Below are positions 39,521-62,178 of a stretch of DNA of 64,000 nt, one piece after another; the first letter of the stretch is position 1, and each line of letters begins with the position of its first letter. Below the pieces are notes generated by a model. The model was not told where the DNA came from, ran no database searches, and saw nothing but the letters and a program-made list of their open reading frames with translations. The position numbers and the translations under genes are program-made. Source of the stretch: Sclerotinia nivalis (Eukaryota; Ascomycota; Leotiomycetes; Helotiales; Sclerotiniaceae); contig JAPEIS010000004.1 in the NCBI GenBank assembly GCA_029531795.1, positions 992,001-1,056,000 of the forward strand. The letters run 5' to 3'.

Positions 39521-39898
39521 GAAATGGTAAAATAGCATAGGAGAACAAGCTTTAGATGTGTTGTGGCATTTCGAAGAGGTGCGGTTGGAAAGAAATTTGG
39601 GTTATGGAATTGTTAGACGGTCGTTATAGGTATAGGTATAGTAATGGTAGTATGGGTTTGAGAGTACATTGACTTTCATTAATATTATTATGACTTTGAT
39701 GCATGTATACTACGTCTACATTCTGAATGTGATTCATGTAAAGATGTTTTAATAGTAAGGAATTTGAGTCATATATACTTAAATAGTTTGTAGTTTTCTA
39801 CCAAATAAGACAAAATTGAATTCTACAATCTTCAATAACCTCCATACTTCTCAGAGGGATAATAGATAGAGTATGATTTCTTGGAGTTATGAATATGA

Positions 39899-39927
39899 CA
39901 TGGTATGGTATGATATGGTATGGTATG
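39899..39927. repeat. TATGG simple repeat
   Basis: Five or so near-perfect units of GGTAT/GATAT in tandem. Confidence 0.8.
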
Positions 39928-40349
39928 TAAAGTGTATATATAATTATACATATTGGATTTTAAATTGAATTTTTGGTGTGGGTATGAGGTTGGTGTGGGT
40001 AGTGAGGTGGGATGGATGAAATGGATGGGATTGATGGGGTGGATTGAGGAGGATATTGGTGGAAAGATAGGGGAGAGCAGATAGGGGCGGAAAATGGTGG
40101 AGAAGATAGGGGGGGATATTAGTTTGTAAGGTTTTTAGGAGGGAGGGGGAGTGAGTGAGTAAGGTGTTGGAGTGTATACATATATAAATAATCAAAATAT
40201 AATACAACTACTCTCAAGAATGATAAATGAAATGTAGATTTAAATGATACTTAATAATTAAATAATCACTTACAATGCCTTGTATGACACGGTGTATTTA
40301 ATTGGTATTAATAGGGGTTGAGTGGAGGTGAGTGGAGAAATGGAGGAAC

Positions 40350-40376
40350 AGAGGTAGAGGTAGAGGTAGAGGTAGG
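40350..40376. repeat. AGAGGT hexanucleotide repeat
   Basis: Four units of AGAGGT followed by a partial unit. Confidence 0.85.
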
Positions 40377-43300
40377 TTAATGAATGATCTTTTGTGCGTA
40401 TTGTTTATGGGTTGTTGTGGAATGGGGATTGGTTGTTGGTTCTTGATGGGGTATGAGAAGTTGATGATAGAGCCTTGAGAGTATAAGAGGAAGGTTAGGG
40501 ATTTAAGATTTGAGATTGTAGATTATCTATATGTATGTATGCGTATGTGTATGTTTATGTATACGTGGATTAATAGTAAGATATAAGATATGAACATCAT
40601 TTGAATATTACCTTCGACTCTCGAGAACAAGGAAGTTTAATACATATCGAGGGATGGATGTTATATTTCATATTTCATATAATAAACCCGCGAGACTGAT
40701 GTACATGATCTCAACAACTTTTGAGAATCACATTACAATATATTTCAAGAGACTCAGGAGTAAGATTTAAGTAAGCCTTGGACTATCAATTCAATAATCA
40801 ACAATGAAAAATAAGTGATAAATACTTAATGATAATAATAATAATAGTATCAACATAACATAACAGAAGACGAGAATAAAAGAGATGAAACACCCCAGAT
40901 AACACAATAAGCATCTGCACTCACTCCTGATTCACATATATCTACCTACCTACCTACCGGAAGATCACACGAACGACCCATTTAAGGATAATGGCGGTAT
41001 ACATATAATACAATCCATCCATTTATCCATGTATATACTTGAGCCCCACAGACTAGTCTGAGTGAGGGTATAGAGACGGGATTTGAAGTTGGGAGCATGG
41101 AGATTGGAGGATGGGGATGGGGACGGTGATTGGGATTGAGATTGAGATGGGTGGTGGAGAGTTTAGGGGATGTAATATTTACGGTGTGAGATGCGAGATG
41201 TAAGATGTAGGATGTAAGGTGTAAGATGTAAGATATAAGACAAAAGGTACAGGGGGCGCTTCGGAGTGGGTGGGGAAGTAATGTGAGAGATATTTAGGTG
41301 GTCTAGGTGGTGTTTGGTGATGGAGCGGGTTATGGAACGGGTTATGCGGGTATGATTTTAGGGGTATGATTTAGGGGTGTTTGTGAATAAGTGAGTGAAT
41401 GGGAATCTATAGGTGGTGTTTATGAGGGTGATAGTATTCTAAAAGTGGTTGGGGTTGTTAGAGAGAATTCTCGGCAACTGAGGTTTAGGAAATAGGTTCA
41501 AAGGGTTTTACTAGATTACATGCTCATACATTACTAATGGGCTGAAGATGAATGCTGTATAAGAAGTTCTGAATATTAATGATTAGATTTAGGAATTATT
41601 CAACAATGCTCATTCACATGTTACATCCTAGATAGAGTCATTCGTCCGAGAGTCCTTTCCAAGGAATAATTGAAAGTGGATATCAAAAAGTAACTACTGT
41701 CTAAAGATAGAATGACTGCAGATGAGACGCAACCTAGCCTGAATCAAGTAGTTGGGTTATTATCCATCAGTAGGAAGTTTCTCAACCTAGATGATGTGAA
41801 ATGGAAGGCTTCGTATTGGACAATAGGGAAGCGGTATGTGATAGTCTTACCGACTTATCAACTAGACTGAAATATTGAGAAGGGTTGTTATCAAAATGGT
41901 AGAGATCCCAAGCCAGACTAGGATATAATGAAGGTATCATCTGATATTCTGGATACTCAAAATAGATTATGACAATGGGAAAATATCGTCTAGATAAAGG
42001 GTAAAAAATCAATCGCGACGGAGATATCATGAATTGCCAATTTTTCGATAGTAAGAGATATATATCTGGGTTAGAATGAAGTATTGGCATGTCATCGTCT
42101 GGAGCTTGACGGCATTGAGTGTAACCGCGGAGCAGGTGGAAACGGAGAGAAGTCTTCGGTCAATAGAGCGATGTATCCCCATCCTCGAACTTTCGAGTTT
42201 AGTCTTTCATGCCGAGAAAGAAAAATACTAGTTTCTCTGCACAGTAAACCTTGCTTATTCGGCCCATTTCTTCACAGTGATAGTGGCAAGGTGTGCACGT
42301 AGGATTATGATGCACCTGCACCATCCCCCTCGTCTTGTCTTTCATCTTGTGGTAGTTGATTTTCTCTTTCTAAATTGACTCATAATGTAACGACAAATAC
42401 ATGAGAAGCTTGAACAATACATGCCACAAGAAGCATTGCATACCAAAGAATCGGAAGACGAGCTAAGTGGACCGTGGGCCTTGGGCCTCAGTGGATGATG
42501 AGGAGAAGTTTATTAATAGTCCGATTGTGGGTCCCGTAAAATAGCTTGCTTGTTGATATTTTTGTGGATCCAAGCTATCAAGCGCTCGGGGACAAACGGA
42601 AGAATGGGTATTTGACAGCCGAGGAGAAGTAGATAATGCGCGCCTAGTTGTAAGTTGGTGAATGAGTGGCTGAACTCATTCAACACTTTTGTCGTAAGCG
42701 ACAAATGGTAATCGGACAATCCACTTCTGACAGCGGCTCATTTGGGTGCTGTATGCCAATCGAATGGTAATATCAAAGTCTGAAATTGTGGGTACAGATG
42801 GTAAAAGTCTATCATAAGCGTCAGTATTTTATTGTTCTAACTAGAAGTGTATAATATCTACTTCGAATCTTTCGAATCTAAACAATAAGATGGTGGGTGT
42901 ATCTTTGATATCACTATTGAACGATACGAATCTTGTAAATATGTAGTGGGATGTATTTGACGATTGTGACCGGCCAATAGAACGAAATACTTATTTTGTG
43001 TAGATTAGACGATTTTTACGATGCCGAAGGTTCGACCCTTGCATCAATGATAGGTTGGTGACCACTTGGACGAATAAATGACTTGTCTTCACCTAGTCGA
43101 TAAACCGGAATTCGGCAAGACGTTAAGAAAATTTGTGTGGCAGGATTAAACGGGCGACAAGGAAAACATTGAATGAATGGACAGGAAGACAGTATGGACC
43201 CAAGATTAAACGTCTACGACGTCGTTGAATGAGGTTTGGAGAGACTTCCACATCCCAGTGTTAAATGTCACATGCAGATAATTGAGATGTAACCCAGCAA

Positions 43301-44809
43301 TTTGAGTAAATTGTACCGAAAATAGCAAATCAATCGGCAGAGATGCACAGAGCTTCTATTTCGAGAACAATTAGCTGGACTTCCCGGTTGTATTACGGTG
43401 ATTGAGTCCTGACCAATTTGAGTGGATAAAGCTGCATTAATTAGTGATAATTCGTACTTATTGAGACAAGAGTAAAAGGCAGGGATAGATGAGGAGGTTG
43501 GTAAAAGACCCGAATCAGATACCTGTTCATAGATCTCGAAAGTTTTATCCCACACATCGGAAAAATAGTGGGAAAAGTTTCGGGTAGTTAAATATTGCTA
43601 ATTGTCACGGGAGTGGAGCTAGATGCGGGATGCTTAAGGTTGCGTCGCTGCATGGGAGAGATTGGACCTGTAAACGAGAGGACATTCAATATTGTGAGGA
43701 TACCTGAGAGATACAATTTGAAGGTACGTTAAAGCTACATTCAGATTAGATAGAGGTATAGTGAATCCCTGGAAATCGACTTACTCCGTCTTATTATGGA
43801 TCTGATGCGATAGCGAAGTGAAGATTTCCCTAGATTTAGCTGATCATTATCTCTAGACCCGTCTGCTTAGTTAAGTGTAAGAAATTTCGAAATGGTGGAG
43901 TCTGAAGTGTTAATATTCCCCGAGAAGGAATGAGGTTAAACTGCAGTCAGCACAACCGATGGAAGTTCACCGCAAAAGCTGAAGCATCCAAACAACGCCT
44001 CGAAACAGTGTAGATTCACCTTCACGTCTTTAACCACATGGCGGATTGTCAATGCTCAGGGTAATTGAAAGAAATAACAAGAGAATTAATTTCAAGGAGA
44101 GATAGGAGTATTTCTTTCTTCTTTCTAATTTCTCTGGCTGACTATGATGATGTACTGACTCCTACCCTTCTCCTCAAAAATCCACCCGTTTGTCTAATCA
44201 GTTAACCATCAAACATGATGCAACTTTTGCACCACTTGGCGATAGATTAAGGTACCACATACACATAGATTGATTAGCAGTTATTGAATCGTTCTTCCTC
44301 CCAGTTTATGGGCATCGATCAAGAAATCCTTGATCCATAGAAATTCTGTCACGGAGAAGGTAGGAAAACAGTTCCTGTCAAACCGGTAGTGATCAATGCC
44401 ATGCCAGTAAAATTTTCATACTTGCAGGGCTACCCAGTACGATGTCTAGATGCTTGTAACTTGACAAGCCCAATGAATATCGTCCGAACAGTAAATGTGG
44501 ATTGAGCGATTATCCCCACAAATATTCAACAATTCGAGCATGAAGCATTGAAAGCAAGTATAATAATAGCTCGTTTAGGGTTATATGAATTAACCGCTCG
44601 GGTATTTTTGTTGGTGAATAGTAATAGCAAGGCAAGGTATGAAGGTAACTCTAAGTAAACGGCGAAACAATGCGCGAATAGGAGGATGCGGGAAGGTGTA
44701 TGCTTGCGACGTCCGCGATAGTTGGTGAATTCCAATGTTGGATCAAAGATTGTTTTGAGAACAAGTTTCCTGAGTGCCCTAGATGTCGTATGATACCTGG
44801 CTAGTCAGG

Positions 44810-44868
44810 TAGTGTAGTAGGGTAGCAGTGTAGTAGGGTAGCAGTGTAGCAGTGTAGCAGTGTAGCAA
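44810..44868. repeat. GTAGCAGT / GTAGTAGG tandem repeat
   Basis: About seven copies of an 8-9 nt unit (AGTGTAGC and AGTGTAGTAGGGTAGC variants) stand head to tail, at the far side of the gene-poor tract. Confidence 0.8.
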
Positions 44869-46067
44869 TCAAATAAATGAGGTTATTTCCTTTTGTACCA
44901 TCTTACCGTGGTACAACAAAAAAGGTGCATTAAATTTTTCATCTCGTGCATATGATCGTGATGAGAACAGACCAAGGGAAAAAGAGAGATGATATCAATC
45001 GATAACTGAAAAAAGGTATGCGTTACAATTTAGATTTTGAGGTTAGAAGATGGATAATGGAGAGAATTGAATTATCTCAACCAGGGTGACAAAAAGACTG
45101 TCTGTAAATGTTTGGTAAAAATTCAGAAGTTTATTAGATGAAGATACATATCAAGGGTTGCGTAAATGGAGCAAGCAATGGGTCAAGCATTAGATATTTT
45201 TGTCAGTGTCTGGTGTGATAAGTGGTTAGTGCACGTCCGCCATTAGGCAACACTAAACGAGATCCCCCCATTAGCTTCATCTAAACTTCCTTGCTCTCAT
45301 CTCATTTCATCTTAGATCAATTCTATTCTCGACTTCTTTCTTTTCTTTCCTTCAACCTTCACTTTGATCAACCTTCACTTTGTACACTAACAACAATCCT
45401 TGTGCTTCTTTTATCCTGAACAATGGTTTGTATGCAGGAAGAGGATAAGATATGTAAGATAGAGGATTCAATCCTTGTCTCGCAGAAATGCAAGAAGTTC
45501 GGGAACAGCCCTTGTCTACAAGACTGCACGCCAAATGAAAAAGGTACAACATCCACAATGAAGAGATCCACATCTTTTGTATCATGTATCATTCTACAAG
45601 GTTCATCGTTATTTTTCCGTTTCGTTTGATAACTTACCTCCGCATTGTACTAGTGTCTTCAGGGTCTGAATTAATTGACTAGGTCTTGCTTATTGTTCCT
45701 ATTCTTATTTATCTAATCCTCAATCGAGTCAATTGACTCCGATTTCTATAAGATGACTTCATTCTCCCTTCAGTTGTGGTAACTCATCAAAGCTTCAATC
45801 TCATCTCATCTCCATCTCTAAAAACATCTACTTAATCTTCAACCTTCTTATACTTAGACGTCAATTCACTACCTCCTTCTCATACGGCAGCAGTCTCAAA
45901 ACTTGATATTCTAAAAATCGAAACTTCCCAGTGCTGGACTATTTAATTCTCCATCCTTTTCAACAACTCCAATTTATATCCTTCCACCTCCTCAAATCTG
46001 TGTCGACCACTACTTCCAACCAGAACAATATCCAATTTACAACATAATTCTTCACATCAACGACATC

Positions 46068-47431: not shown

Positions 47432-50400
47432 TCAATAATGAAGCTGCTGATCCTCATACAATTTCCTAAACAAAGAAGGCCGCGCGAGTAAATTCCCCGG
47501 AGCATCACATTCCATTAATTCTCCACGATCAAACAGGGCCACGCGGTCGAAATCGACGATTGTGTTTAGGCGGTGCGCGACGGCTATGATGGTGCAGTTG
47601 TGGAAGATGTCTCGGATGATTCTTTGCATTAGGGCGTCGGTTTCTTGGTCTACGCTGTTTTTTTTTTGTGCGTTAGTTTTTATTTGTGTTTTTGTTTTTG
47701 GTTTGAGGAGGATGGGAGAGTGGGTTAGGTGTTTGGGTATTTATGACGATGTGAAGATAGAAATATATGACATACTTGCTCGTAGCCTCATCCATAATTA
47801 AAATTCTCGCCGGCCTCACAATCGCGCGCGCAAGACAAAAAAGTTGTCGTTGTCCGTGACTTAGGATCTCGGCGTCCATTTCACTATCCAGAGTTCCGGT
47901 GCGTGGTATGATAGATTCCAACGATACCATTTTTAATGCGTTCATTAGAGATGCGTCGTCGGATACGTGGTGCGGATCGAGATTCTCTCGGAATGTCCCT
48001 TTGAGGAAAAATGGCTCTTGCGGTATAGCGTTTAGATGAGCGCGGACTTTTTCTCGGGGGAGAAGGGTGATGTCGATGTTGTCGATGGAGATGCTGCCCT
48101 GTGATAGATCGAGCATGCGGAATAAGGTTAGGGTTAGGGAACTTTTGCCACTGGGGTTTTGTAGGTTAGGATGTATATATTTTAGGTGGGATTTAGTGTT
48201 TACTTACCTCCCGCTTTTTCCACAGATTCCGATTTTTTCTCCGGGCTTGATGGATAGTTCTACGTTTTTTAATACTGGATTGCTGTTTGAGCTACGAGTT
48301 GTTAGTTTGATATAAACTCCATTGGCGCCATCGCTACAGATAGGAGTTAACTAACTTGTAAGTGGCCCAGGCATTTTTGAACTCAACACTGCCATTTTGT
48401 GGCCAATCCTCACTAGGGATTATCATCTCCTGAGACGAGGTCTCGCTCTCCGACTCTGTCGTTTCACCAAACGTTTTAATTCTCGAGACGCTACCGATGG
48501 AAGTTTCCAGCGTGGTCCAAAGTATCACGATCTGTTTTAGAATAGTATTGAACGACATGAGGTTTACGAGCGCGAGACCAATATAACTGTGATGGGAGCG
48601 AGTGACGGTTGCAACACCGACTAAAACTATTACGATGGCTGTAGTCACCATGTTTAAAATGACGGCTAACCATTGTTGAACCATGAAGAGAAGGTATACC
48701 GGGCTTTGAGATGTATCTAGTAGCTTGGAATTGAGTTCCTGGTTGATCGCCGTCCAGTTAAAAGCTCTTATTGTTCGAAGTCCACGCAGAGTTTCGAGGA
48801 AATGTGTACTATAATCATTCGTCGTTAACGTTTGATACTTGAAAATATCAAGTGACGGTATCAACGTATCGTTTGAAAACCGACTGGGGAGACTTACTAT
48901 AATGGCGACTTTGCGTCTAATTCCAGTAAACGAAGTTGACGGGAAGTTCTGAGGTAAAATTTCTGGATATAGTAAAGAATTGCAAATAACACGGGATACG
49001 AGATAGCTAGGTATGGCGATGCAACGGCAATGATTATTGCCTGTCCAACCATCATAAAGATCAAAGCAGCTATATTCATTAGCGCATTGGGTAGCTCTGT
49101 ATCGATCAGCAAAATGTCTTGTGAGAATCTATTAGTAATGGATCCAGAATCAGTCGTATGAAAGAAACTTAAAGGTGCGAATATTGCCGTCTTAAGAAGT
49201 CTAAAGTGTAAGTTCTTGCCCGACTTCTTGGCCATTGAGTTGAGTCCATGTTGCGCGAGAAGTGTGACAGAGAGTAATCCAAGTAATTGGAAAATACTAT
49301 ATACTGTCAGATACATTTTGTTATTGTCGTTTGCTTCTGACCACCAGCTTAGCCAGACAAGTGGGAAGTTGTAGAAAAAGCCAAAGGACGCTGCAAAAAA
49401 CAGGTAAGGGATCATGTTGAGAAGCCCGATAGATGTAAAATAATACCAATAGACCGAAAAATCGGTATTATTGCCCACTTCAGTAGTGATAGCTGGAACA
49501 TTAACTGCCTGCTCATTCGACTCGGTAATTGCATCTGGAGCGGTAGGAGTTTCAGCATTTGCCTCCGAGTTACTTTCCACGACCTTCAAGTTGGATGCTA
49601 CTAAGCGCTGAGTGTATCCTTGAGTACTAAGAAGCAATTGTGGACTTCCTTGCTCAATAACGGTCCCATTAGTTCCAAGAGCGACAACGTAGTCGGCAAA
49701 TTGTATAAGATCGACATCATTTGTGAAAAGCACTACGGTGGTTTGTTTCCGACAAAGCAGTCCTTTAGAGCCAAAAACACCGTTGAAAACACGTTGTTTG
49801 GTAGTTGCATCGAGGCCGTTGAAAACATCGTCAAAAATAGCGATATCATTTCTTGCATAAACTGCTCTCGCAATTGATACTCTTTGTTTCTGGCCTCCGC
49901 TTAAGCCCAATCCATTGGCACCGACTAGGGTCTGGTCTCCAGATGGTAAGATGTTAAGATCGTGGCTCAGTGAGACAGCATTTATGACACTATCGTACCA
50001 TAAACTGTCAAAAACTGAAGATCCAATGATATTTTCTCGTAGTGTGGTGTTGGTCAAAAATGGGGTCTGGTCGCAGAATGCTATTTGAGATGATGAGAGT
50101 TGTACGATGCCTTCGGAAAATGGAATTTCTCCCAGAATGGCATTGCATAGAGTTGACTTCCCAGAAGCTACTGGTCCAATCACCATAGTAAGCTGTGATT
50201 TTGGGAATTCGATATCTATGTCATGAAGGGTGTGGCAGTTTTCTGTCCAACCAAATGCGCCTCCTTGAATTTTAATGCTGACTTTGTTGAGCAATGGCAT
50301 AGTAGTAAGGCTCAAAACAGTAGATGGTTTTGTTTCTTGGGAGAGGTCCAAATCATCTAGTGGAATATCGTCCGTGTTTGCCATGAAAGTCTCACTTCTC

Positions 50401-52521
50401 GCAGAGACATTAGAATCGAAACTTTCGCGCTTGTCTATTAACGATGGGCGCTCTAAGAAATGAGATATACGACCGAATGAACTAATGGCTGCCGCAAGTT
50501 GAGGGATGACCTGAAATAGTTGTGTCAATGGTTGTGTTTCGAGCAAAAGTGTTGATATGGATGTATAAACTACTGTTGAGGCGAATGCTCCACTACCATG
50601 ATTGGCTACATTAACGAATATAGCGAAAGTGACGACTGGGGAAATTATTTCAGGTAGGAAAGCTAAATCTTTTGTTAGTCATCTTCACAATAATTAAGCT
50701 CGGATTGTTGTGATCACCGAAGAAAGCGGTAATAACTTCTACTTGTCGAAACGCTTTCGCCGATTTGAGTTCGGTGAGTCTCAGCGCGTGAATTGTTTTG
50801 AAAAGCTTTTCCGTTAGTCCCAACATTTTGACTCCTTTTATTGCTGAAAATGTGGCCGCTGTTGTAGCTAATTGTATGTAAGCTGATTTGTCTCTTGTGG
50901 AAATATCGAGTTTACTGACCCACTCGCTGTTGTATGACAGACATCCACTCGCGTTGGTGAATATTTGCTCGAGAACTGAGCCAGAATGAAGCAGTACCAC
51001 AACCTACATCAAACTGTGAGTCATGCCTGTGTTAGAGCTGAGTTCAAGCATACCTGTAGCGATGACCAAAGGAGCAAAGCAAGCAAAGCCGACTTGTGTG
51101 TATAAGAGCCAGCTTGCTAAGCCTACTTCGATAATGTTGGCCCACACTTCATGCATCTGTCTTAGTGCATACATAATACGTTCAGTATCTGCACTCATTA
51201 GAGTAACTGCTGCAGCATTGTCAAATTCTCCAATGCCAATCTGGGTTGTTTTGTGATATATTGCAGATACCAAAACACCACGTATCATGATCAATGATCG
51301 GTAAGTCAAACGATAATAGATGGCAGTAGAGATCTGGGACCTAGTAAGTATTGATTCATAAGATTGAGAGTATGTCATGGATCCTACCGTTATTCCTAGA
51401 TAAACAATACCTTGATGTAATTGTCAGCTCATAATATTATACGGAAGGCTTAAGGCATTACCGTAAGCTCCGACAAGCCCATAACCTTGGTTTGTGGTAT
51501 TTTCGGTAACAGGTTGTTGTAAGTAATTAGTAAATCGACGTATTAGAAGTGGTTGACAAAAGTTGAAGCCAATTAGACAGACTCGTGGGATCATTGCAAC
51601 GAGTATTGAACCTATGAGGGCTCTGAATGTCGCATAAAGAGCGCGGTAGCTACCGGCCTTGGCTCCTGCTACTGAAATTAGACGACGAAGGCATTAACAT
51701 TAGGGAAAATCTGATTCCAACGCACCTCGTTCCCAAGCAGTTTGGAATTTAGGCAAAAGGGTTTCAGTTGAAAGTTCCTCATTGAGTGGATAAAGATCTC
51801 CAAGTGCTAAAATGTTCTTTCGTCCCCGAATCAAAAGGTCTTTCAGCCACCAGAATACTGCCTTATTAAAAACACCGCTCTTTTCTTCAGGGCCATATTT
51901 CTTATAATCATGGTACAGTAATTGGTCCTTTCCCCCGGCTTCGAGCAGGAACATGCATAACTTCAGAGCCAGTGAAGCAGAGAAGACTCCTGCGATAGCT
52001 ATGTCATTATCAATCAACCAAATAGTCCTGATTTGAACAGCATCGAAAATCAATGTGCATAGCAGATACACATTCAGTATACTCGATGGGCGGATTGACT
52101 TAATATGCTCCTGATACGACAAGATACAAAGAAATACTACCACTACATTGTATAACACTATCGAAGGAATGGCAGTTCGTGTATTTTCTGTGTTGCGAAT
52201 AGAATATAGAACAAGAAGGACAAGCTGAAGTAGACCATATAGAATAATGAAAAGCTACGAATTGTAAGTCTTTGTTTGTATTTTTGCGATGCAAATGATC
52301 ATCCTCACCAATTTAAATAGTTGGGCACCGGTACCTGATACTCTTCTAGGCTGTCTATGCAAGGAGTAGATCTTTTGTGATGAAATTAGAATAAAGAGTA
52401 TAGAAGGTAATATGGAAAAGAAGCTCTGTTCAAAAAGAAGGGTGAAATCAAAATCCTCTCGGCATCCCCCTTGAATGGTAGGACCAAAACTGTCATCAGT
52501 ACAAATGCTTGATTGATTCAT
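47432..52521 (-). CDS. ABC-C (MRP-type) full-length multidrug transporter, 12 exons
   Basis: ATP-driven exporter of the plasma or vacuolar membrane. Exons in transcript order: 52521-52309, 52254-51726, 51671-51462, 51410-51388, 51333-51054, 51003-50920, 50867-50718, 50662-48898, 48808-48356, 48291-48208, 48150-47776, 47654-47432; the phases all agree and give 1462 residues. Layout: N-terminal TMD0 (DDSFGPTIQGGC start), TMD1, NBD1 (about 625-840), TMD2, NBD2 (about 1220-1440). NBD1 has GPVASGKST, LSGGQKQR and FDDVFNGLD; an Asp replaces the catalytic Glu, as usual in ABC-C NBD1. NBD2 has GKSGSGKSS (rebuilt across an intron), LSHGQRQL, MDEATSNVDQETD (rebuilt across the last intron) and AVAHRLNTIVDFDRV. 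It lies divergent to an MFS transporter and next to a repeat-peptide precursor, so it is a candidate exporter or self-protection pump for that product. Confidence 0.93.
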
Positions 52522-53273
52522 GATTATCTTGCGTTGTATCAATTCCAAAAGATTTCGATAGCCAGCCTGTTTTGCTGCCGGGTGATGAACCCGAATACCA
52601 AAATTCGCTAAAATGGGGAAAAGGTTGTTCTGAAGGGTAAGCTTAAGGTATTTTTTCGAGATTAAATCAAATCATAATCATACCGGTACTCTGATTTTCA
52701 AGGCTTATAGTGTATGAGAAGCTAATACTGTTTCTTACTTGAAAATTTCAAAGCAAAATCATGATTAGTTGATTGATTCGATATCGAATTTCTTTCTATG
52801 GTATGGTTGAGTATGATTTTACTGTTCGGCAATGTTCTTCCGATTCATGAGCCTCTAAAAGATAAGCTCTTATCATCATCTCCAATATTCCTGACTTGGT
52901 TCCAGATCTCATTGGGCGATGAGTATAGGATCGTGATGGGTATCTTTCAAGCATCCGAATTAGGTAGGTGCGGAAATAAAATAGGAGATTGCTGGGAACT
53001 GATGACATGTACAAGTGGTGGAGCCCCGTCGTCGTTTACAATCACTAAGCCAATCAAAGATTATGGATCAACAACAAGCCGCGACTTCCAACTCGCTAAT
53101 GTTTGAAAAGCAGGGGGAAGAAGATGTCGCTCCCGTTTGGGATGCCATATTACCCATCATGTCAGATTCTCCTTCGTTCTTCTCAACTCCTACCTACATC
53201 TATTCTCTCGGATTGCCCACTATTCTCGCTCGACATAAGCAATTGATGACCGCACTACTCAGAGGCCTTTACC
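52522..53273. promoter_or_regulatory. Divergent promoter region of the ABC-C and MFS transporters
   Basis: The two transporter genes start 752 bases apart in opposite directions, so their promoters must lie here and may be co-regulated. On the MFS side an upstream open frame (53063-53287) overlaps the MFS start codon out of frame. I see no specific binding site that I can name with confidence. Confidence 0.45.
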
Positions 53274-55180
53274 ATGGCAGCTCTTAATCCCTCAGCCGGC
53301 GAAGAGACACCTCTCTTGCCTGCGCCACCGCGAATTTCTATTGTCTCTTCGTCTTCGAGACGGTCTCGATGGATCTCTGATCGAACAACCTTTTGCATCC
53401 GTCGGGCACGTTCACCTCACGTGATAACGGCTATCGTGCTTGCGTCTTTACTTTGGCTCGAGTTTGGGGGGTATTTGATGGCAGTACCAGTATTGAGAGT
53501 TTACGAGGATATCATCTGCCATCACTACTATGATCGTCTGCAGGGTGCCGGTTATACAGTGCTGCTGGGAAACATCGATGAGAGCATGTGTAAAAAAGAT
53601 GATATTCAGAATGAACTGAGTATCGTGGTCGCAGGATCTCACTTTCTTGGGGCAATATCAGGTAAGTAGCGAAGGGAAAATTCAATTGTTGAAAAAAGGA
53701 GCTAATTCAACATAAGGTCTTATTGCGACAATACCGTATGGTATGCTTATGGACAGGTATGTACCAATTTCGATGCACTATTATTCTATATTTCTACATA
53801 TATTCACAGAAGAATATCCCTAAGTTATATCTTCAAAAGAGAACAATGGTTTATGCCTTTTTAAGATGATGCAAACAAAAATTATACTAACACCTAACAG
53901 AATTGGACGAAAGCCAATTTTCATTTTAGCAATGATAGGTATAGTCCTTGAAGCTCTGTGGGGGTTGGTAGTCATGTGGTTTTGGCGTACGCTTCCCCTT
54001 CGCCTCGTTTGGCTCAGTCCCGTTTTTACCTTGATCGGGGGTGGATCAAGTGTAGGAAGCATGGCATTTTTTGCTATCATAAGCGACATCACTCCGGAAG
54101 CAAAGAGGTAAGCTTGTTTTCCGACTTTCAGATACCATAGCAAATACTAACGAGTACAGAACGGATGTATTCTTTCTGGCCGCCGCCACGGATCTTGTTG
54201 CTCAGCTAATTGCTCCGTCTATGGCTGCTATCTTGATGGCCAAGTCTCCGTGGCTTCCCCTTACTTTGGGGATATTTTCCTTTATCCTCGGAAGTCTCCT
54301 CATAATATTCATTCCAGAAACCTTACACATACATCAGACTTCCGATCCATCGCACTACCCCTCTCCTTCTAACAATGACTTCCCCAATAGCCCAAAATCA
54401 CAAAAGTCTCTTTTACCCACAATCAAACACCAGATTTTAGCTAGTCTCCAATCTCTAAAATCCTCGATCTCAATCCTCAACTCTGCGCCTCTAATCCTGC
54501 TTCTCATCACCTTCGTCATCAAACATTTCAGCAGCCAATCTGTCGATATCTCCCTCCGCTACATTAGTAATCGCTTCCAATTCCCTCTCCGCTACAGCTC
54601 CTTCCTCTGGTCCCTCCGCGCCGGAGTACAAATCATTCTATTTTTACTCGTCCTCCCCTCCCTATCACGCATCATGACCACCCGTCTCCAAATGCCCCCT
54701 GCAAAAAAAGACCTCTACCTAGCCCGGACCTCAATCCTCATCCTCACCCTTGGATCCATTTTAATCGCTGCATCCCCAACGCTACCGTTGGCCATCCTCG
54801 GGATGACGGTATTTACTCTAGGCGCAGGATATATATCCATAACACGCTCCCTGATAACGACGCTGGTCGATCAACAGCACAAGGGACAATTGTATGCGGC
54901 GGTGGCGGTGGTTGAGACGACCGGAAGACTAATAGCGGGACCAGCATTTGCACAGCTTTATATTGTAGGATTGAGGTTGAAAGGCGCTTGGGTTGGGTTG
55001 CCGTTCTTCGGACTGGGTGTCATATGTGGTTTGTCAGGGATAGCCGTCTGGAGTGCCGGCTGGGTGATGAGTAGGAGAAATTGGGAGTGGGAGAATGGTA
55101 GTGGCGAGAGTGTGGGAGACTCGGCAAATGCAGAGGAGGATGAAATTGCAGTGTTAGGTGAGGAAGAGGAAGTCCGATAA
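53274..55180 (+). CDS. MFS transporter
   Basis: Proton-linked major facilitator; substrate unknown. Exons 53274-53661, 53717-53756, 53901-54107 and 54160-55180 give 551 residues with about 12 membrane spans. A Ser/Arg-rich cytosolic N-terminus is followed by TM1 (VITAIVLASLLWLEFGGYLM). The MFS motif A, GMLMDRIGRKP, is rebuilt across introns 2 and 3 near residues 138-148. Next come GGGSSVGSMAFFAIISDITP (TM4/5), a charged central loop with NDFPNSPKSQKS, TM7-12 (LILLLITFVIKHF, VFTLGAGYISITRSLI, LIAGPAFAQLYIVGL) and an acidic tail. Exon 2 is only 40 nt. MFS exporters are regular members of fungal RiPP clusters, and this gene lies 750 bases from the precursor, tail to tail. Confidence 0.92.
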
Positions 55181-55931
55181 CGAGAGGAGTCAAGGTGATT
55201 TAATAGATTTGGATATGATCGAGACAGATATAAAGAGGTGGTTTTCATATTATACATGTATAGACTGTTTAGATTCAATTTAATATGGTTATAAGTTGTT
55301 ACACAAGTAGAATGTTGGCCAACAGTGCTTAACAAATTACCTAACTTCCGCAAGTGTGGACATACGTAGGTAGATACATGTAGATGATGGAATAGTCATC
55401 AATAACAGCTTATTCGAAGTCGTCATCTTCCCACGGCTCAATTCTTCTCTTTATGCACCATTTCCCAATATCTACATATAAAATCACAATCAAATTATGA
55501 TCGCACGGGCCTTCGAGTCATCTCACAATTCATACATTCCACATATATTTCACACACAAATTAAGATCACAATAAAATAACAAAAGCACAAAATATTCAT
55601 TCTAAACCAACTACCTCCAACTAACAACCCTCACACTCGTCCCCAAAAACCAAAAAATCAAAAAACCAAAATCATAACTCATAAAGTAACTAACTACCCA
55701 TCATACTAGAAATATATATATATACCTTCCAATGCAGCAGCAGGTCAGTCGTACCCAAATCCAGGCAAAAGTACAAGAGCAGGAAAAGCTTCCAAAACCT
55801 ACTCTACTCTTACGACCTCGCGACTCCATGAGACGAATCTCGATAATGCCTAACTTTGTGCGCCGCAGTGCTCTCCCTTATTTATATTATGTGGATCGTT
55901 GCTCCGCGGCTTGGAAAAGGATGGGAACTTT
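55181..55931. other. Intergenic region between convergent MFS and RiPP precursor genes
   Basis: AT-rich 3' flanks with a (TA)n stretch near 55708-55722. The open frames crossing the right end are shadows of the periodic precursor sequence. Confidence 0.6.
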
Positions 55932-56585
55932 CTAAGCTGATTGGGCTGAGGTGTCTTCGGAGTAGTCGGCATAAGGGACGACGGTTGGGACGAAGCGTTT
56001 GGTTTGGGCTTCGGCGTCCTCCGAGTAATCGGCGTAAGGAACGACGGTTGGAACAAATCTTTTGGTGTTCTCCTCATCCTCAGCATAATCTGCGTAAGGA
56101 ACGACGGTGGGGACGAATCGCTTTACGTTCTCGGCATCCTCGGCATAATCGGTGTAGGGGACTACGGTGGGGACGAAGCGCTTGGTTTGACCTTCAGCAT
56201 CCTCGGAGTAATCGGCGTAAGGAACGACAGTGGGAACGAATCTCTTTACGTTCTCCGCATCCTCAGAGTAATCCGCATAAGGAACGACAGTGGGGACAAA
56301 TCTCTTAGATCTCCTAGCATTGCGCTTGGATGATGCATCCTCAGAGTAATCCGCATAAGGAACGACTGTTGGGACGAATCTCTTTGATCTCCTAGCATTG
56401 CGTTTAGATGATGCATCTTCAGCATAATCAGCGTAAGGAACAACAGTGGGAACGAAGCGTTTGGTGTTGGCTTCAGCGTCCTCAGCGTAATCGGCGTAAG
56501 GGACGACGGTAGGAACGAATCTCTTGGCCTGGCCTTCGGAAGCGTCCTCAGAATAGTCGGCGTAAGGAACGACCGTGGGAACAAA
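55932..56585 (-). repeat. Ten in-frame coding repeats of 60-78 nt
   Basis: Units in transcript order start at 56585, 56519, 56456, 56378, 56300, 56240, 56177, 56117, 56057 and 55994. Units 3 and 4 are 78 nt, the others 60-66 nt. The core is held at the protein level with many synonymous changes (for example GTC/GTT/GTA for Val), which points to purifying selection rather than very recent amplification. Units 3 and 4 are the closest pair and share the unusual spacer. Confidence 0.95.
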
Positions 56586-56732
56586 TCTCTTGGCATTACC
56601 AGGAACTAGCTTTTGTGAGTCTTGTGTTCATAGAATGCTGCATTTCATGAACTTACTAGCTTTGGGAGCAGGAAGAGCTGCAACCAACGTGCTAAGCACG
56701 GAAAGTGAAAGGACGACTGAGCCGGTTTTCAT
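55932..56732 (-). CDS. Kex2-processed repeat precursor, candidate dikaritin-type RiPP precursor
   Basis: Secreted precursor predicted to be cut into many copies of one short peptide. Exon 1 is 56732-56657 and exon 2 is 56605-55932, with a 51-nt intron (GTAAGT...AAGCTAG); total 249 residues. Residues 1-25 are a signal peptide (MKTGSVVLSLSVLSTLVAAL...). After a short IPGNAKR leader come ten copies of FVPTVVPYADY[S/A]ED, each spacer ending in KR, the Kex2 site; the last copy ends SAQSA and stop. Copy 7 reads PYTDY; copy 8 has an E for A change just after the core. Copies 3 and 4 carry a longer spacer, SSKRNARRSKR, with extra dibasic sites. The signal peptide, KR-spaced repeats, Tyr-bearing core and nearby UstYa-like genes match UstA/PhomA-type precursors. 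No start codon exists in the exon 2 frame, so simple ORF calling misses it. A pheromone-like or structural repellent peptide is the alternative. Confidence 0.9.
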
Positions 56733-57787
56733 TGTCTTGTCTTTGACGAGTGGTACTTGGGTAGGTAGGTAATGGTTGGAGACTTGTGATGTTGTTGAAG
56801 GAGATGAGATGAGTGATGTTTCTCTTCTTGGTCAAGAGAATGCCTTTACTTTATACTTTTGGATCTTTGGATATCGGCTGGAAGCATATCGCTTCGCGTA
56901 AGCTTAACATTTGAAATGAATGCGTGGTTAACGCTCATCCGCCGATCAAGATAGCTTTACCTTCCTCATGGAGTTGTGAATTGTCATAAGACTCAAACTT
57001 GATGGTAGATCAGATAAAGGCGTGCGAATCAGTTGTCGTGAGACAAGGAATGGGAAGGAAAAGACCCCGGAGAATGATTCCTATCCCATTGTCCTATCAT
57101 CACAGATTACCTGAATGCGTTGTTAGAATCATATGTTCTCACATCATGCAAGACAATATGCAATAATGGAAATGCTATCTTTGAAGATGTTTCGGGCTGT
57201 AGAAGCAATTTGCTTGACGATGTCTAATCAGATCTTTTCCTATTTCACTGCACAAGACAGCAACACTACCGCCTAGTATGCAGATAGCTCTAGATCTCCT
57301 CCTCTTCCTTGCTGGAGGATGTTTTAATTGCTCGATATTCCCCACAAAACAATGATAAGTGGCGTGACTGGCCTATTTACTCGTCTTATCAGGAGCCAGA
57401 TTCTCCTCCTTATGACGGATGGAACCTCTAGACAACATATGAAGAAAGGTTGTAATGGCGTAACATGAAGCAACCGTCATGGTAGAATTCAACACGTCTT
57501 CCCTTGGCATCAAGGTATGATGATATGGGATATGGTAAGAACTCAACACATTGACGAAACTGTCCAGGATGTAAACGCCATCATCGTCTCCATGGTCAGT
57601 AACCACCAGTCGGCAATGACAGAAAATTGAGAGATCGTCACGGGTAACGGGCTATCGTTTAGTTAAGCTTATGCTAGTTTTCTCCACGTACGTACTCGTG
57701 TATGTGAAGTGAAGGTTGCAGATACCAGCAACGGTGATGATAGCGAGATACCAAATGCACTACCATATGGTTCTACTTTAACAACAC
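56733..57787. other. Intergenic region, 1.05 kb
   Basis: Upstream region of the precursor gene. A 77-codon open frame on the minus strand (57373-57606) has no domain. No transcription-factor gene is seen, although such genes often lie inside these clusters. Confidence 0.45.
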
Positions 57788-58195
57788 TTATGATTGCTGG
57801 GGAATATCTGAACAGGTTGATTTAGAATCCTTCAATACAAGATCGGCAGATGCAGGGCACGGTATTGTGCAACAATAAACTTACACAAGCATTCTCCAAG
57901 TCGTTCGTTTCCTTCTACACAAGCTTGGCCTAAACTAGCGACATGACCTTTTAAAGCGTGTGTAAGAGATACCGTGGGTTATAGCACGGGATTGGTGAAT
58001 GGTAATGCGTGCTCGCAGCATGTGGCAATCAGCGTTTACTTATCACAGGATAAGTCACCACAGGCGAGAGAGATCGTCCACTTGAAAGGCAGATAAGAAA
58101 GAACCTTCACATCCAAGCACTAGCTTCTCCTCCCATGCTCTCACAGAAAGGCAAACAATTAACAACGCGAAGAATACTTTATGGAGGAATGCCAT
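57788..58195 (-). CDS. Possible small secreted cysteine-containing protein (tentative model)
   Basis: Tentative. Exon 1 58195-58105 encodes a convincing signal peptide (MAFLHKVFFALLIVCLSVRA) then WEEKLVLGCEG. Exon 2 57947-57885 gives HVASLGQACVEGNERLGECL, and exon 3 57807-57788 ends with YIPQQS and stop, total 57 residues. Donors GTTCTT (weak) and GTAAGT, acceptors AAAAG and TTCAG. The unspliced reading of exon 1 ends at 58055 after SFLSAFQVDDLSRLW. I recognise no family. The signal peptide is the main evidence; exon choices are uncertain and the whole model could be wrong. Its place between the precursor and the first UstYa-like gene makes it worth testing. Confidence 0.3.
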
Positions 58196-58601
58196 CCGAG
58201 CCCCTCGCCCGAAGTTAAAATATGTGCAAGGTTTAAGTGCTTGGCGACTGGCCACTTTGTACTCAACCCCCAATTCAAACAGATGTCTAAGGCCCGGCAT
58301 TAGCGATCAACTAGTTGATGCAGGGTGTCAGATTTAAGGTCAACCTATGAAATAGTTCCCCGCTATATTTGTTGATCAATACCGAATCGAAACCGCATAG
58401 CTACTCACTTTGATGATGTCCATCCTTCAATCAAGCTAGAGATATCAAGAAATCCCAATATCAAGTTTTCGCTTGATTGCTTGCCACAATATTGAGTTCT
58501 TTGTTCGAAAACTTGCCCGTTGCGTTCATATCTTCTATACCCTTCGACACGGGATTCATTGATCAAATTCTTGCACTGTTAGACTTTCCTTAATCTCCAT
58601 C
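58196..58601. promoter_or_regulatory. Upstream region of the first UstYa-like gene
   Basis: About 400 bases that must contain the promoter of the gene at 58602 and, if real, of the divergent small gene. No specific element was recognised. Confidence 0.4.
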
Positions 58602-59705
58602 ATGTCAGACAAACATTCAGTTCACTCGGAAGATGAGCCTTCTTGGAGTCCAAAAGATGTTGAGGAAAGTCTTCTTCCTGAAGAAATCAATGGGCTAAAC
58701 AAAGGCAATAAAAAGTGCCATCGCTCTTACCTCCGGTGTTGTACTGGCCAGATCATATCTTTTTGCTTGGGAGCTCTTTTTGCATTCATCACACTTAGTC
58801 TGGCTTGGAGCAGACCAATATTTGATTCCAAATTAGACAATAATCAATGGAGTATATCTATTTTTCCATCTTATTCGCTTGTTCATGCTAACGCAATCCG
58901 CGTAGTCCAGAACACAGAACTCCGGGGTCTTGTATCAGCGCCTACAAAAAAAGTGAGATTCGATGGGACATTTAATCGTTCATCTCCTTATAAAGGGCCG
59001 CCATCGCCTGAAGTTGACGCGTTATGGGAAGAGGTTACAGAGTGTAAGTGTTGCGATTCCTTTGTAGATATCCACTAACAAATCTCAAGTGGGAACCATG
59101 AGTATTTCTGAGGATGTCTTCCAACACCTGAATGCCTCAAAACACGCAGTTAAATTGCCAAGTAGCCTCGGAGGTGGCCGACTCGCAGTTTTTGAGACAA
59201 TTCATCAAATACATTGTGTGGTAAGTAGCCCAAAAGTCGATTCAAAAGCTTGTCATTAACTTCATCGAAGCAAGCGTTATGGCAGGCAGCCTATCCTGAG
59301 TATTATACCAAACAAACAGAATTCAAGATCAGCAACCCAGGAGACTGGTATGATCACCTAGGTGAGTCACAGTCAAAACTAAGAGCTCTGCAACTTTGCT
59401 AATCCGAAATCCTAGACCATTGTGCGGATATGCTCCGACAAAAGCTGATGTGCGACGCTGATACTGGTATCATCACTTACAATTGGATGAAGGGACATAG
59501 AAATCCCCATCCGAATTTCAATGTCCAGCATGAGTGTCGCGATTTCAATGCTATTCTAGAGTATGCTCGTGACAACCAAGTGGATAAGGAGAACAGTGAG
59601 CGGATAGATGTCGAACGGTTGAAGCCAGACAATGGACTGATGATGGAATTTGAGGGCGAGCCTCCATTTGATCCTGATGCAGTGCCGTCCATACGTCAGC
59701 AATAA
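58602..59705 (+). CDS. UstYa-like (DUF3328) RiPP-tailoring protein, first copy
   Basis: UstYa-family proteins are copper-associated, membrane-anchored oxidases that close side-chain ether or C-C rings in dikaritin RiPPs. Exons 58602-59043, 59090-59220, 59271-59361 and 59416-59705 give 317 residues. Visible: an acidic cytosolic N-terminus, one membrane span at about 50-70 (IISFCLGALFAFITLSLAW), a lumenal SPEVDALWEEVTELGTMSIS segment near 138-155, the first metal motif HQIHC (HxxHC) at the exon 2/3 junction near 187-191, and the second motif DHCADMLRQ near 223, followed by MCDADTGIITYNW, ECRDFNAILEYARDNQV. Both hallmark motifs are intact. The C-terminus is longer and more acidic than usual. Lies 1.9 kb from the precursor start and is likely to act on that peptide. 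Confidence 0.93.
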
Positions 59706-61395
59706 GAGTTGTAAATTAGTATGTCTCAAAGAAATTAGCCTGTTGTTTCAGCAGGATTCATAGCAATATAAATGTGCATTTGCACTAGCTTGATTGAAAC
59801 GAAAAAGCCCAATGGTCTACCTTAGGTGATATTAATCAAACTAATGCATTTTCCGATGCATTGAAGTATGTTTGCCATGCTTAGACTCCTATTACACTAG
59901 GTATAATGTGAGGACCTAGCAGTGTTATCATCCTCTCACTTGAATTTACTTTGGCGGGACTGCATTAGTTGGCGTTCTATTCCCAGTATATTTCTTCAAT
60001 GCCAATCTGACAGCTGAAAGTAACGGGCGCTAGCTGGATCTCTGGCAACATCCACGGTTGCAGTCGCTTGGGACTACCAGCTTGATAAGATGATCGCAGG
60101 TTAAATCTGTCAAGTGGCGCGGGAAAGTGATTGAGTGATTGTGGTGTTAGTGGACGACTAGTCACTATGAGGGAAGCCTTAGTCTATATTTAGCATGGCT
60201 TCCGAAAGCATGATTTCACCATAACAGCAAAGTAGCACGGTATTACAGTACAGAAGATCTTCCTCGAATGAAAGGCACTTGCTTAATCTTTTAACCTTAA
60301 AAATCCCTGAAGGATAACTTCCTTTTTCGACTTCATCAAATACCCTTAGCTGTAGTTTTATCCACGACCTAGGCAGACACATCTACCGTGGCCACTATCA
60401 AAACTGGGCACTATGTAGGATGCAATCAGGTAATCATGAGGGTAATAGAGCGATGATCTCATTGCACCTCGGAAAATGTCTCCGAGGCTACTTCTCAAGG
60501 TGCGGGGAGTTTTGCTTGTCGTTTTGTTTCCCTGCTCTAACTTGTAGCAGCTGAACTTTGGAGATCTCTGATCTCCCTTACTTCCTGCCTCGACCTTTTG
60601 CTAGGTCTTCCGGCCATGTCTTCAAACATCAAAAGAAGTTCATTCTGGTGCAAGATTATCCACCGACATCTTCATCGTGAACTACCCCGCACCCGCTCCC
60701 GGACGTCAGAGCCATCGCGCAATCCTGATTAACTCTCCCCACTCTTTCGCTACGCCACAGAAGCACAGGATGCTAATCCCAAACCCAGATCTTCTTCAGT
60801 GGGTCGTACGGATACTACCTTCTATTTAAGACATGGCGTCAAAAGACAGATCAACTAGGATAGGGAAATGAGGAACACTCTTTAGACTAACATGCTTTAA
60901 CCTTAAATAGAGAAGAAGATCTGAGAGTTCTGAGTGCTGTAAACAAACCAATACAGATTTAAGTACGCGTATCTAGAATGGTGGAGCCCTCGTAAAGTAA
61001 AAGCCAATCGGACGGAGTACCTAGATGTGCACCCAGCCAAGATCAAGGAAAAGTGGGACATCTTAATAGATAACAAGCTTTAGTCTAGAACAACAAGCTT
61101 TAGAATATCCGCATATCCGTCAAATGTACTTCTGTTTGACGTCAGTGCACGACACGGATAAGCATGTTTGTGATGAACATACACAGCGCAGGCGGATCTT
61201 GAAGTGCCAGGACTCAGGAGTAGAGAAGATCGCCATATATTCTGTGAAACTTACATTAAGCTCTTTCGTATATCCCTATCGCTTTGATGGATACCAGTAT
61301 GCCAAAGTTGAAGAGGCTTAAGCTCATGTTTGTCACTTCTTCTTGCAAAACTCCAGAGTTACTTTTCAGTTTTCTCGCTGAGAGTGATTAACACC
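59706..61395. other. Intergenic region between the two UstYa-like genes, 1.7 kb
   Basis: Long for a gap inside a cluster. Open frames of 60-67 codons show no domain. No third tailoring gene, peptidase or methyltransferase could be recognised on either strand; a decayed gene cannot be excluded. Confidence 0.5.
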
Positions 61396-62178
61396 ATGAG
61401 CCACATCCAAACCACATCTCAATTTTTATCCTCGCGAAGAGGTTACCAACTCCCTTCCTTGGAAAATGATCAACTACCTTCTCGAAAAAGCTGCAATTCT
61501 AGTCATCCGCTTTTCAATCGTCAAGCCGTGCTCATCTTCTTCTTCTTTGCGTTTGGAATAAGTGTTAGTTTTGTGACTGGGCGTTACTACATACCATATC
61601 AAGATGCTGTCAGTAGATGTCAGCCAAACATAGAACGTAACTTGACCCTTCTCAGTGTATACTAAATCTAATGCGTCAATGGCATATAAGCTGATTATTC
61701 TTCAGTACCTTTACAGGAACATAAGTTTGTTTACAACCAGACATTCGTTGAAGCTGGTCCAACCGCAGACAAGGCATGGGAGTCACTGTTTCCAGCCCAA
61801 GGAGGATATTTCCGTCACCCAACAGTCTCTCCAGCGCGCGCCAACTTTGCAGTCTTTCATCAGCTGCACTGCCTGGACAAGATGAGGCTAGCATATTGGG
61901 CATTATACGATGGCAGTCTAGCAGTACATAATGGAGCGCCCGGGGCTGATTTTGACCCGAACAGCCTATCTGACCATTTTGCGCCCCTTCACATTACTCA
62001 TTGCTTCGAACTGATAAGAAACGCTTTGATATGCAGACCTGACACAACAGTCGAAGTCAAAGACTTGAAAGTCAATGGAGTCACAGGCTTCGAGGCTGAA
62101 CATTTTTGTGTTAATTGGAATCAATTAGTCGATTGGGTTTCGGAGTGGGAGAATTATGGCAAGCCAGGTACTAAGTGA
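61396..62178 (+). CDS. UstYa-like (DUF3328) RiPP-tailoring protein, second copy (UstYb-like)
   Basis: Second member of the oxidase family, of a different subgroup from the first. Exon 1 starts at the ATG at 61396; exon 2 is 61706-62178. Two donors fit: after 61636 (GTAACT, 237 residues) or after 61654 (GTGTAT, 243 residues); both keep phase 1. Visible: a Ser/Arg-rich cytosolic N-terminus, one membrane span at about 45-65 (AVLIFFFFAFGISVSFVTG), FVYNQTF, AWESLFPAQGGYF, the first motif FHQLHCLDKMR, the second motif HITHCFELIRNALIC, then DTTVEVKDLKVNGVTGF and HFCVNWNQLVDWVSEWENYG. This GxxGF...H.C end is typical of UstYb-like proteins. Dikaritin pathways usually need two different UstY proteins, and this pair fits that. 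Confidence 0.92.

Follow-up and report, generated by a model that had tools for sequence, protein, structure and literature searches.

The locus described here raises the question of whether a secreted repeat protein and two genes of the UstYa (DUF3328) family, encoded together in Sclerotinia nivalis, form a pathway for a ribosomally synthesized and post-translationally modified peptide (RiPP). The window, that is, the whole stretch of 64,000 nucleotides that was analysed, corresponds to G000:C4:992001-1056000 in an assembly of 50.3 Mb and 31 contigs (contig C4 has 2,968,593 bases), and a taxonomy look-up places the source species in Sclerotiniaceae, Leotiomycetes. A first-pass annotation of this DNA had read the locus as a RiPP cluster with a Kex2-cut repeat precursor and UstYa oxidases. 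This reading is supported, because orthologous precursor and UstYa genes co-occur in relatives and the cores are strongly constrained, and from the sequence we consider it very probable that S. nivalis carries a RiPP cluster of the asperipin/dikaritin type with a minimal gene set. The features that carry the argument are as follows:

55932..56732, minus strand: precursor gene, exons 56732-56657 and 56605-55932, intron of 51 bp, 249 amino acids
55962..56585, minus strand: array of ten 11-residue cores within the precursor gene, KR before each
58602..59705, plus strand: UstYa-1 (DUF3328), exons 58602-59043, 59090-59220, 59271-59361 and 59416-59705, 317 amino acids, motifs HQIHC and HLDHC
61396..62178, plus strand: UstYa-2 (DUF3328), exons 61396-61654 and 61706-62178, 243 amino acids, motifs HQLHC and HITHC

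The exons of the precursor were returned identically by a splice prediction based on dynamic programming. Its N-terminus, MKTGSVVLSLSVLSTLVAALPAPKA, is hydrophobic and resembles a secretion signal, and by eye the N-termini of all six precursors discussed below are alike in this respect. The annotation had described ten FVPTVVPYADY cores between KR sites; the ten units and the KR before each of them (10/10) stand, while nine cores are exact, one reads FVPTVVPYTDY, and the last is not followed by KR; in general form, the units read KR-FVPTVVPY[A/T]DY-[S/A]ED. The stretches between cores are 9–15 residues long, begin with [S/A]ED and finish with KR, two of them with SKRNARRSKR. With its near-identical cores, each of the ten following a dibasic site, and a secretion signal judged by eye, the precursor has the features of a Kex2-processed repeat protein (KEP).

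The DNA copies of the ten cores are all different from each other, nearly always at silent sites only. Summed over the 45 pairs, 242 of 375 synonymous sites (pS = 0.645) and 9 of 1110 non-synonymous sites (pN = 0.008) differ, a pattern of long selection on the peptide, not of recent duplication; the array is not a product of chance, because ten different DNA copies encode nearly the same peptide. Sequences encoding the first eight residues of the core number ten in the 50.3-Mb genome, all at this locus; the reversed pattern is absent from it, and a protein search found no second copy of the precursor. Two Pfam matches of the precursor were rejected as chance. One was to DUF6305 (26.6 and 25.5 bits, cut-off 25), rejected because it covers 20 residues of a 154-position model and no single stretch passes alone; the other, to an NrdI-like flavodoxin, was under its cut-off.

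Both UstYa proteins proved intact and carry both HxxHC motifs, as the annotation had stated. UstYa-1 matches PF11807 with E = 6.9e-48 (163.8 bits) and UstYa-2 with E = 4.1e-20 (73 bits), the curated cut-off being 25; the two share 26% identity, and UstYa-1 is 100% identical to OCU04_004367 of Sclerotinia nivalis. The precursor has no protein record of S. nivalis among the matches listed (candidates of 0.55–1.75 of the query length), which suggests that it is not annotated or is annotated at another length. The motif HxxHC(x)nHxxHC is complete in UstYa-1 and UstYa-2, with four His and two Cys kept. When 60 of the 92 UstYa matches were aligned, these six residues proved conserved in 58 or 59 of 60 rows (57/57 at one His), and two additional Cys (C234 and C262 of UstYa-1) in 58/58 rows; UstYa-2 is represented there by its S. 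sclerotiorum orthologue P0009, which has the same motifs as the protein of the window.

For CctR, the same motif is reported to form a binuclear copper centre in a membrane-associated homodimer, with copper binding shown and the motif needed for activity (PMC12435403), and AprY, the asperipin cyclase, is reported there as copper- and dioxygen-dependent. A solved relative of the UstYa proteins was found neither by sequence (no match at E ≤ 1 among 177635 distinct PDB sequences) nor by fold (0 Foldseek matches with E ≤ 0.001, from a model of middling quality with mean pLDDT 76 and pTM 0.61), so the assignment of a copper site draws on the motif and the CctR paper.

Five orthologous precursors were found in the protein database:

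Botryotinia calthae, precursor BOTCAL_0032g00060, contig 140554: the adjacent tag BOTCAL_0032g00050 is a UstYa-1 orthologue (71%)
Sclerotinia trifoliorum, precursor P0097, contig 1792904: UstYa-1 orthologue (86%)
lgn, precursor on contig 27886 (27.9 kb): P0014 is UstYa-1 (59%, covering 46% of the query), P0049 is UstYa-2 (67%)
Usnea florida, precursor BDR22DRAFT_819442, contig 757751: P0034 is UstYa-2 (63%)
Botrytis cinerea, precursor ABEW05_002640: no UstYa placed on its contig among the matches listed; linkage could not be told

Orthologous precursors lying without any UstYa gene in related genomes had been named in advance as counter-evidence. What we found instead is a precursor together with a UstYa-1 orthologue, a UstYa-2 orthologue or both on one contig in four of the five cases, equal contig size serving as a proxy for the same contig (one size is given per 90% cluster), and a fifth case that could not be told.

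The phylogeny is consistent with this linkage. In a FastTree tree of 93 rows, the UstYa-1 proteins from precursor contigs fall into a single clade (support 98; 14 rows, 4 of them precursor-linked), which appeared again in a quick IQ-TREE run on 40 of the 93 rows (SH-aLRT 98, 10 rows). The UstYa-2 proteins also form a single clade (FastTree 100; 9 rows, 3 precursor-linked), which chiefly divides UstYa-2-like from UstYa-1-like proteins. P0039 of the UstYa-2 clade and P0064 of the UstYa-1 clade are listed with an equal "ena" contig size of 12413, and no precursor was seen with them; they perhaps belong to the same cluster in another source. P0034 and P0049, the UstYa-2 proteins on the lichen-type precursor contigs (Usnea and lgn), have C-terminal repeats like GLPSKGSS, which are absent in UstYa-2 of S. 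nivalis, S. sclerotiorum and B. deweyae.

The peptide itself is also kept. Next to FVPTVVPY[AT]DY in S. nivalis, the Botryotinia and Botrytis precursors, with three KR-preceded cores each, encode FVPTIIQYKDY, FIPPIIQYKDY, FVPNIIQYKDY and FVPTIIPYKDY, and the lichen-type precursors encode FVPSIIPYKDY in 7/7 units, that of Usnea having three full repeats and one partial unit without the FVP part. Outside S. trifoliorum, every one of the 23 units (10 from S. nivalis, 6 from Botrytis/Botryotinia and 7 of the lichen type) fits the pattern F-[VI]-P-x-[VI][VI]-[PQ]-Y-x-D-Y, in which variation is limited to Val/Ile exchanges, the two x positions and the Pro or Gln before Tyr. The core thus contains Tyr and Phe together with possible partner side chains. 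KR stands before the core in 20/20 units of Sclerotiniaceae, S. trifoliorum included.

Proximity of such a precursor to two UstYa genes is rarely expected by chance. At least 45 exon matches to UstYa were counted in the genome; they combine into 32 genes, which are spread over 24 loci, and at seven of these the number of genes is two or more. Places within 6 kb of two UstYa genes make up 0.16% of the genome, a count that includes the studied locus among the seven. With the ascomycete average of 5.25 KEPs per strain given in PMC7329392, 0.008 KEPs would be expected by chance near two UstYa genes.

Several observations weigh against the RiPP reading. As the annotation had said, an S41 peptidase (PF03572) and a tyrosinase (PF00264) have no match on contig C4 at E ≤ 0.001 (genome-wide, there is one weak S41 match, on C8, and 18 tyrosinase exon matches, 0 on C4), and a methyltransferase was not found in the Pfam scan of the window, which took in 30 of the 40 frames of at least 160 amino acids. 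The S. nivalis core starts with Phe (FVP after KR), whereas the ustiloxin and phomopsin cores start with Tyr. In the lichen-type units the core is preceded by KAR (six) or EAR (one), which is not dibasic, so Kex2-type sites are not a common feature of these precursors. The cores of the annotated S. trifoliorum precursor differ (FVVPYADY, FVPTGDYIPD, FVVVDYSED and FIPTGDYIPE), and they may reflect decay, newly arisen cores or an error in the gene model. The same-contig placement is based on equal contig size, and the contigs of S. trifoliorum and Usnea are long (1.79 and 0.76 Mb), so that no adjacency is claimed there. The matches listed include no UstYa-1 for the Usnea contig. For S. sclerotiorum, no precursor orthologue is among the matches listed, although the species has a UstYa-2 (P0009) and a UstYa-1 whose model is short (P0013). 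FastTree gave a warning of long branches meeting at the UstYa-2 clade, and no known precursor shares a contig with 6 of the 9 rows of that clade or with 10 of the 14 rows of the UstYa-1 clade.

The precursor is flanked on its other side by two transporter genes, and a further intergenic region is of interest for regulation:

47432..52521, minus strand: ABC-C type full transporter, 1477 amino acids, 11 predicted exons, two PF00005 stretches
53274..55180, plus strand: MFS transporter, predicted exons 53274-53661, 53717-53756, 53901-54107 and 54160-55180, 551 amino acids, PF07690 with E = 5.5e-19
56733..58601, no strand: intergenic region of 1.87 kb between the divergent precursor and UstYa-1 genes

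From left to right, the order is therefore ABC-C (−), MFS (+), precursor (−), UstYa-1 (+) and UstYa-2 (+), and the frame is open in all five genes once the predicted introns are removed. The intergenic region is a candidate control region common to the precursor and UstYa-1. The annotation had noted two divergent exporters alongside, and this was borne out; in the ABC-C model, 6 of the 10 introns were picked by eye, one with a weak donor, GTGATC. We infer from position alone that the ABC-C and MFS genes belong to the cluster. There is nearly an even chance that they are unrelated neighbours of an otherwise real cluster, since nothing besides position ties them to it and ordinary genes were found further to their left. 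Against this stand their open predicted frames directly beside the precursor and the presence of a transporter, aprT, in the asperipin cluster (PMC6514808).

On the right, the cluster borders a retroelement-rich stretch. At its right end, the window has a frame that matches RNase H at the Pfam cut-off; the first 10 kb beyond contain a Gypsy-type element with Pfam matches to reverse transcriptase, integrase and chromodomain; in the second 10 kb, the frames resemble retroelements by eye (2 scanned, 0 Pfam matches); and the third 10 kb carry genes for a release factor, a gamma-glutamyltranspeptidase and an aspartic protease. The annotation had allowed for a continuation of the cluster past the right edge, which did not hold up: no further cluster gene was recognised in these 30 kb, where nine frames were scanned with Pfam. 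The gamma-glutamyltranspeptidase (C4:1081210-1082938, plus strand) was not counted in the cluster because it lies about 27 kb to the right of UstYa-2, behind the retroelements; such a gene is present in the ustiloxin B cluster of A. flavus (PMC6941272). On the left, one DUF3455 gene is followed by 6 kb without a frame of at least 160 amino acids and then by ordinary genes. Among the 30 scanned window frames there was no P450, and no other tailoring enzyme was recognised in them.

Under the RiPP reading, the repeat protein would enter the secretory pathway by the signal judged by eye and would be cut by Kex2/Kex1 after the KR ahead of each core, as the sites suggest, releasing ten near-identical peptides that start with FVPTVVPYADY and end in an acidic tail. 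UstYa-1 and UstYa-2, with their copper motif behind a hydrophobic helix, would then oxidise the core in the lumen in a copper- and oxygen-dependent reaction. Most likely, one or both of the invariant Tyr would become ether-bonded to neighbouring side chains, a judgement made by analogy with ustiloxin, phomopsin and asperipin (PMC6514808, PMC9233826); candidate partners are the two beta-branched Val/Ile just ahead of Pro-Tyr ([PQ]-Y), which would offer the type of beta-carbon used in those peptides. The acidic tail may be trimmed by proteases encoded outside the cluster, and the product may leave by the secretory route, possibly via the MFS or ABC-C pump. That the product is cyclic, which residues are joined and what the transporters do are thus inferred. 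As to what it does for the fungus, the usual supposition for a secreted peptide of this sort would be action on other organisms. Mutants lacking the ustiloxin cluster, the asperipin precursor or GigA are reported to have shown no visible phenotype (PMC7329392).

The UstYa pair might instead modify the core without ring closure, for example by hydroxylation, as CctR does on cyclochlorotine. DUF3328 enzymes are described as hydroxylating, halogenating and cyclising (PMC12435403), but the role known for them with Tyr-bearing repeat precursors, in ustiloxin and asperipin, is macrocyclisation (PMC6514808), and we regard modification without a ring as unlikely. It is less probable still that the precursor is an ordinary KEP giving linear peptides (signal, pheromone-like or surface peptides) and that the UstYa genes serve another substrate. 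In the survey of PMC7329392, 6120 of 7878 KEPs have no DUF3328 neighbour, and several KEP products of mushrooms are reported as linear (PMC9769878). On the other side, the linkage in four of five relatives and the 0.16% frequency of places near two UstYa genes argue for a functional connection, a further backbone gene for a small molecule was not recognised in the cluster, and two Tyr are present in all 23 units outside S. trifoliorum. That the locus is a decaying relic which no longer gives a product in this genus is the least probable of all, since the scrambled look of the S. trifoliorum cores, the short S. sclerotiorum UstYa-1 model and the retroelement frames to the right are set against five open predicted genes and ten strongly constrained cores in S. 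nivalis.

Among known systems, the nearest to the RiPP cluster proposed here is that of asperipin-2a in A. flavus (aprA, aprY, aprT and aprR), which likewise has a repeat precursor, a DUF3328 oxidase and a transporter, lacks an S41 peptidase and tyrosinase in its four-gene set and has a core, FYYTGY, with Phe and several Tyr (PMC6514808). S. nivalis differs in having two DUF3328 genes instead of one, a longer and different core and an ABC-C transporter besides the MFS one, and an isoflavone-reductase gene was not recognised in the frames scanned. With ustiloxin B and phomopsin, the locus shares a secreted KR-bounded repeat precursor, UstYa/UstYb-like genes and Tyr with beta-branched core residues, but S. 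nivalis has no tyrosinase or S41 match on C4 and no methyltransferase or P450 among the frames scanned. The locus lies outside the ustiloxin/phomopsin subgroup as marked by a Tyr-first core, tyrosinase and S41 peptidase. Epichloecyclins (GigA) also come from a repeat precursor, and their cross-link is reported to join an internal Tyr to an N-terminal Ile (PMC9233826); a difference is that no methyltransferase is present among the S. nivalis frames scanned.

The general architecture is not new. In the 2020 KEP survey by Umemura, 1758 of 7878 KEPs have DUF3328 neighbours, as here, and Botrytis, Botryotinia and Sclerotinia are among the genera covered (PMC7329392). In S. sclerotiorum, four DUF3328 pairs are mentioned by Graham-Taylor (2020), who presents a single cluster, located on chromosome 3, as a RIPP candidate (PMC6941272). 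That candidate also has an adjacent DUF3328 pair but is a different locus: the S. sclerotiorum UstYa-2 orthologue, sscle_08g065960 (92% identity), sits on chromosome 8 by its tag. The six core strings and the five locus tags occur in no open-access paper (supplementary tables and files, which may list the Botrytis precursor, were outside the scope), and no report of a product from this cluster was found in the open-access literature. Within these papers, the reading of the annotation that the cluster is undescribed is supported; the kind of cluster (KEP and DUF3328) is already known, and the core type is new as far as the searches reach.

UstYa-type peptides are mostly predicted and rarely found, and a 2022 review names few confirmed groups of them (PMC9233826). 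An orthologous precursor with oxidases in Sclerotinia and Botryotinia makes the product directly testable. Both genera have well-studied crop pathogens among their near relatives, and in these gene deletion is routine. The [M+H]+ values computed for the linear peptide and for the loss of 2 H and 4 H are 1270.635, 1268.620 and 1266.604 for FVPTVVPYADY; 1601.737, 1599.721 and 1597.706 for FVPTVVPYADYSED; 1355.725, 1353.709 and 1351.693 for FVPTIIPYKDY of Botrytis; and 1341.709, 1339.693 and 1337.678 for the lichen-type FVPSIIPYKDY.

The Usnea orthologues extend the comparison to lichens, Usnea florida belonging to Parmeliaceae, Lecanoromycetes, a class different from that of Sclerotiniaceae. UstYa signature genes are described in Parmeliaceae by Pasinato and Singh (2025), whose survey calls the precursor of lichen UstYa clusters a mystery and reports no conserved repeated regions in its two UstYa clans (PMC12048977). 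In contrast, the Usnea precursor has three full repeats, with AR instead of KR, and is a candidate for the missing precursor; its orthologues offer a sequence handle on lichen UstYa clusters. A tentative idea, to which we give somewhat less than an even chance, is that one peptide family, F[VI]Pxxx[PQ]YxDY, and two UstYa enzymes have been kept in or passed between Sclerotiniaceae and Parmeliaceae, with the release site switching between KR and monobasic AR. If true, this repeat precursor connected with a lichen UstYa gene would be without precedent in the papers searched, and the peptide would be a RiPP whose processing signals are less conserved than its core.

Elsewhere in the S. nivalis genome, a KEP was found at 2 of the 17 UstYa loci scanned (of 24), with flanks of only 1.5 kb at 13 loci and of about 10 kb at four (the studied one and three on C16); the scan requires three alike stretches after KR or RR and would miss AR-type precursors. 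The second repeat precursor (C16:1010013-1010312, minus strand) has four units like VVDGDDAVAYAWAVDAEEKKR and, about 1.2 kb away, a UstYa gene pair as measured to its first match; this closeness fits the rule of the KEP survey that DUF3328 genes gather around KEP genes (PMC7329392). At G000:C7:1584470-1590022 there are three UstYa-family genes, with a tyrosinase match (C7:1585494-1586134) between the first two, a possible ustiloxin/phomopsin-like set. Single UstYa matches at C1:3885081-3887552 and C11:1286621-1287954, the latter a short fragment, each have a tyrosinase match within about 2 kb. Because tyrosinase lies near UstYa loci on C1, C7 and C11, this genome may hold ustiloxin-like sets besides the studied cluster.

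Further left in the window, an ADAM-like metalloprotease gene (14456-16980, plus strand) matches reprolysin and disintegrin; it also has a weak ADAMTS cysteine-rich match, which is below the cut-off. The stretch of about 6 kb without a 160-amino-acid frame, between the ordinary genes and the DUF3455 gene, spans 39600-45900, and the plus strand is G-rich at 39–43 kb.

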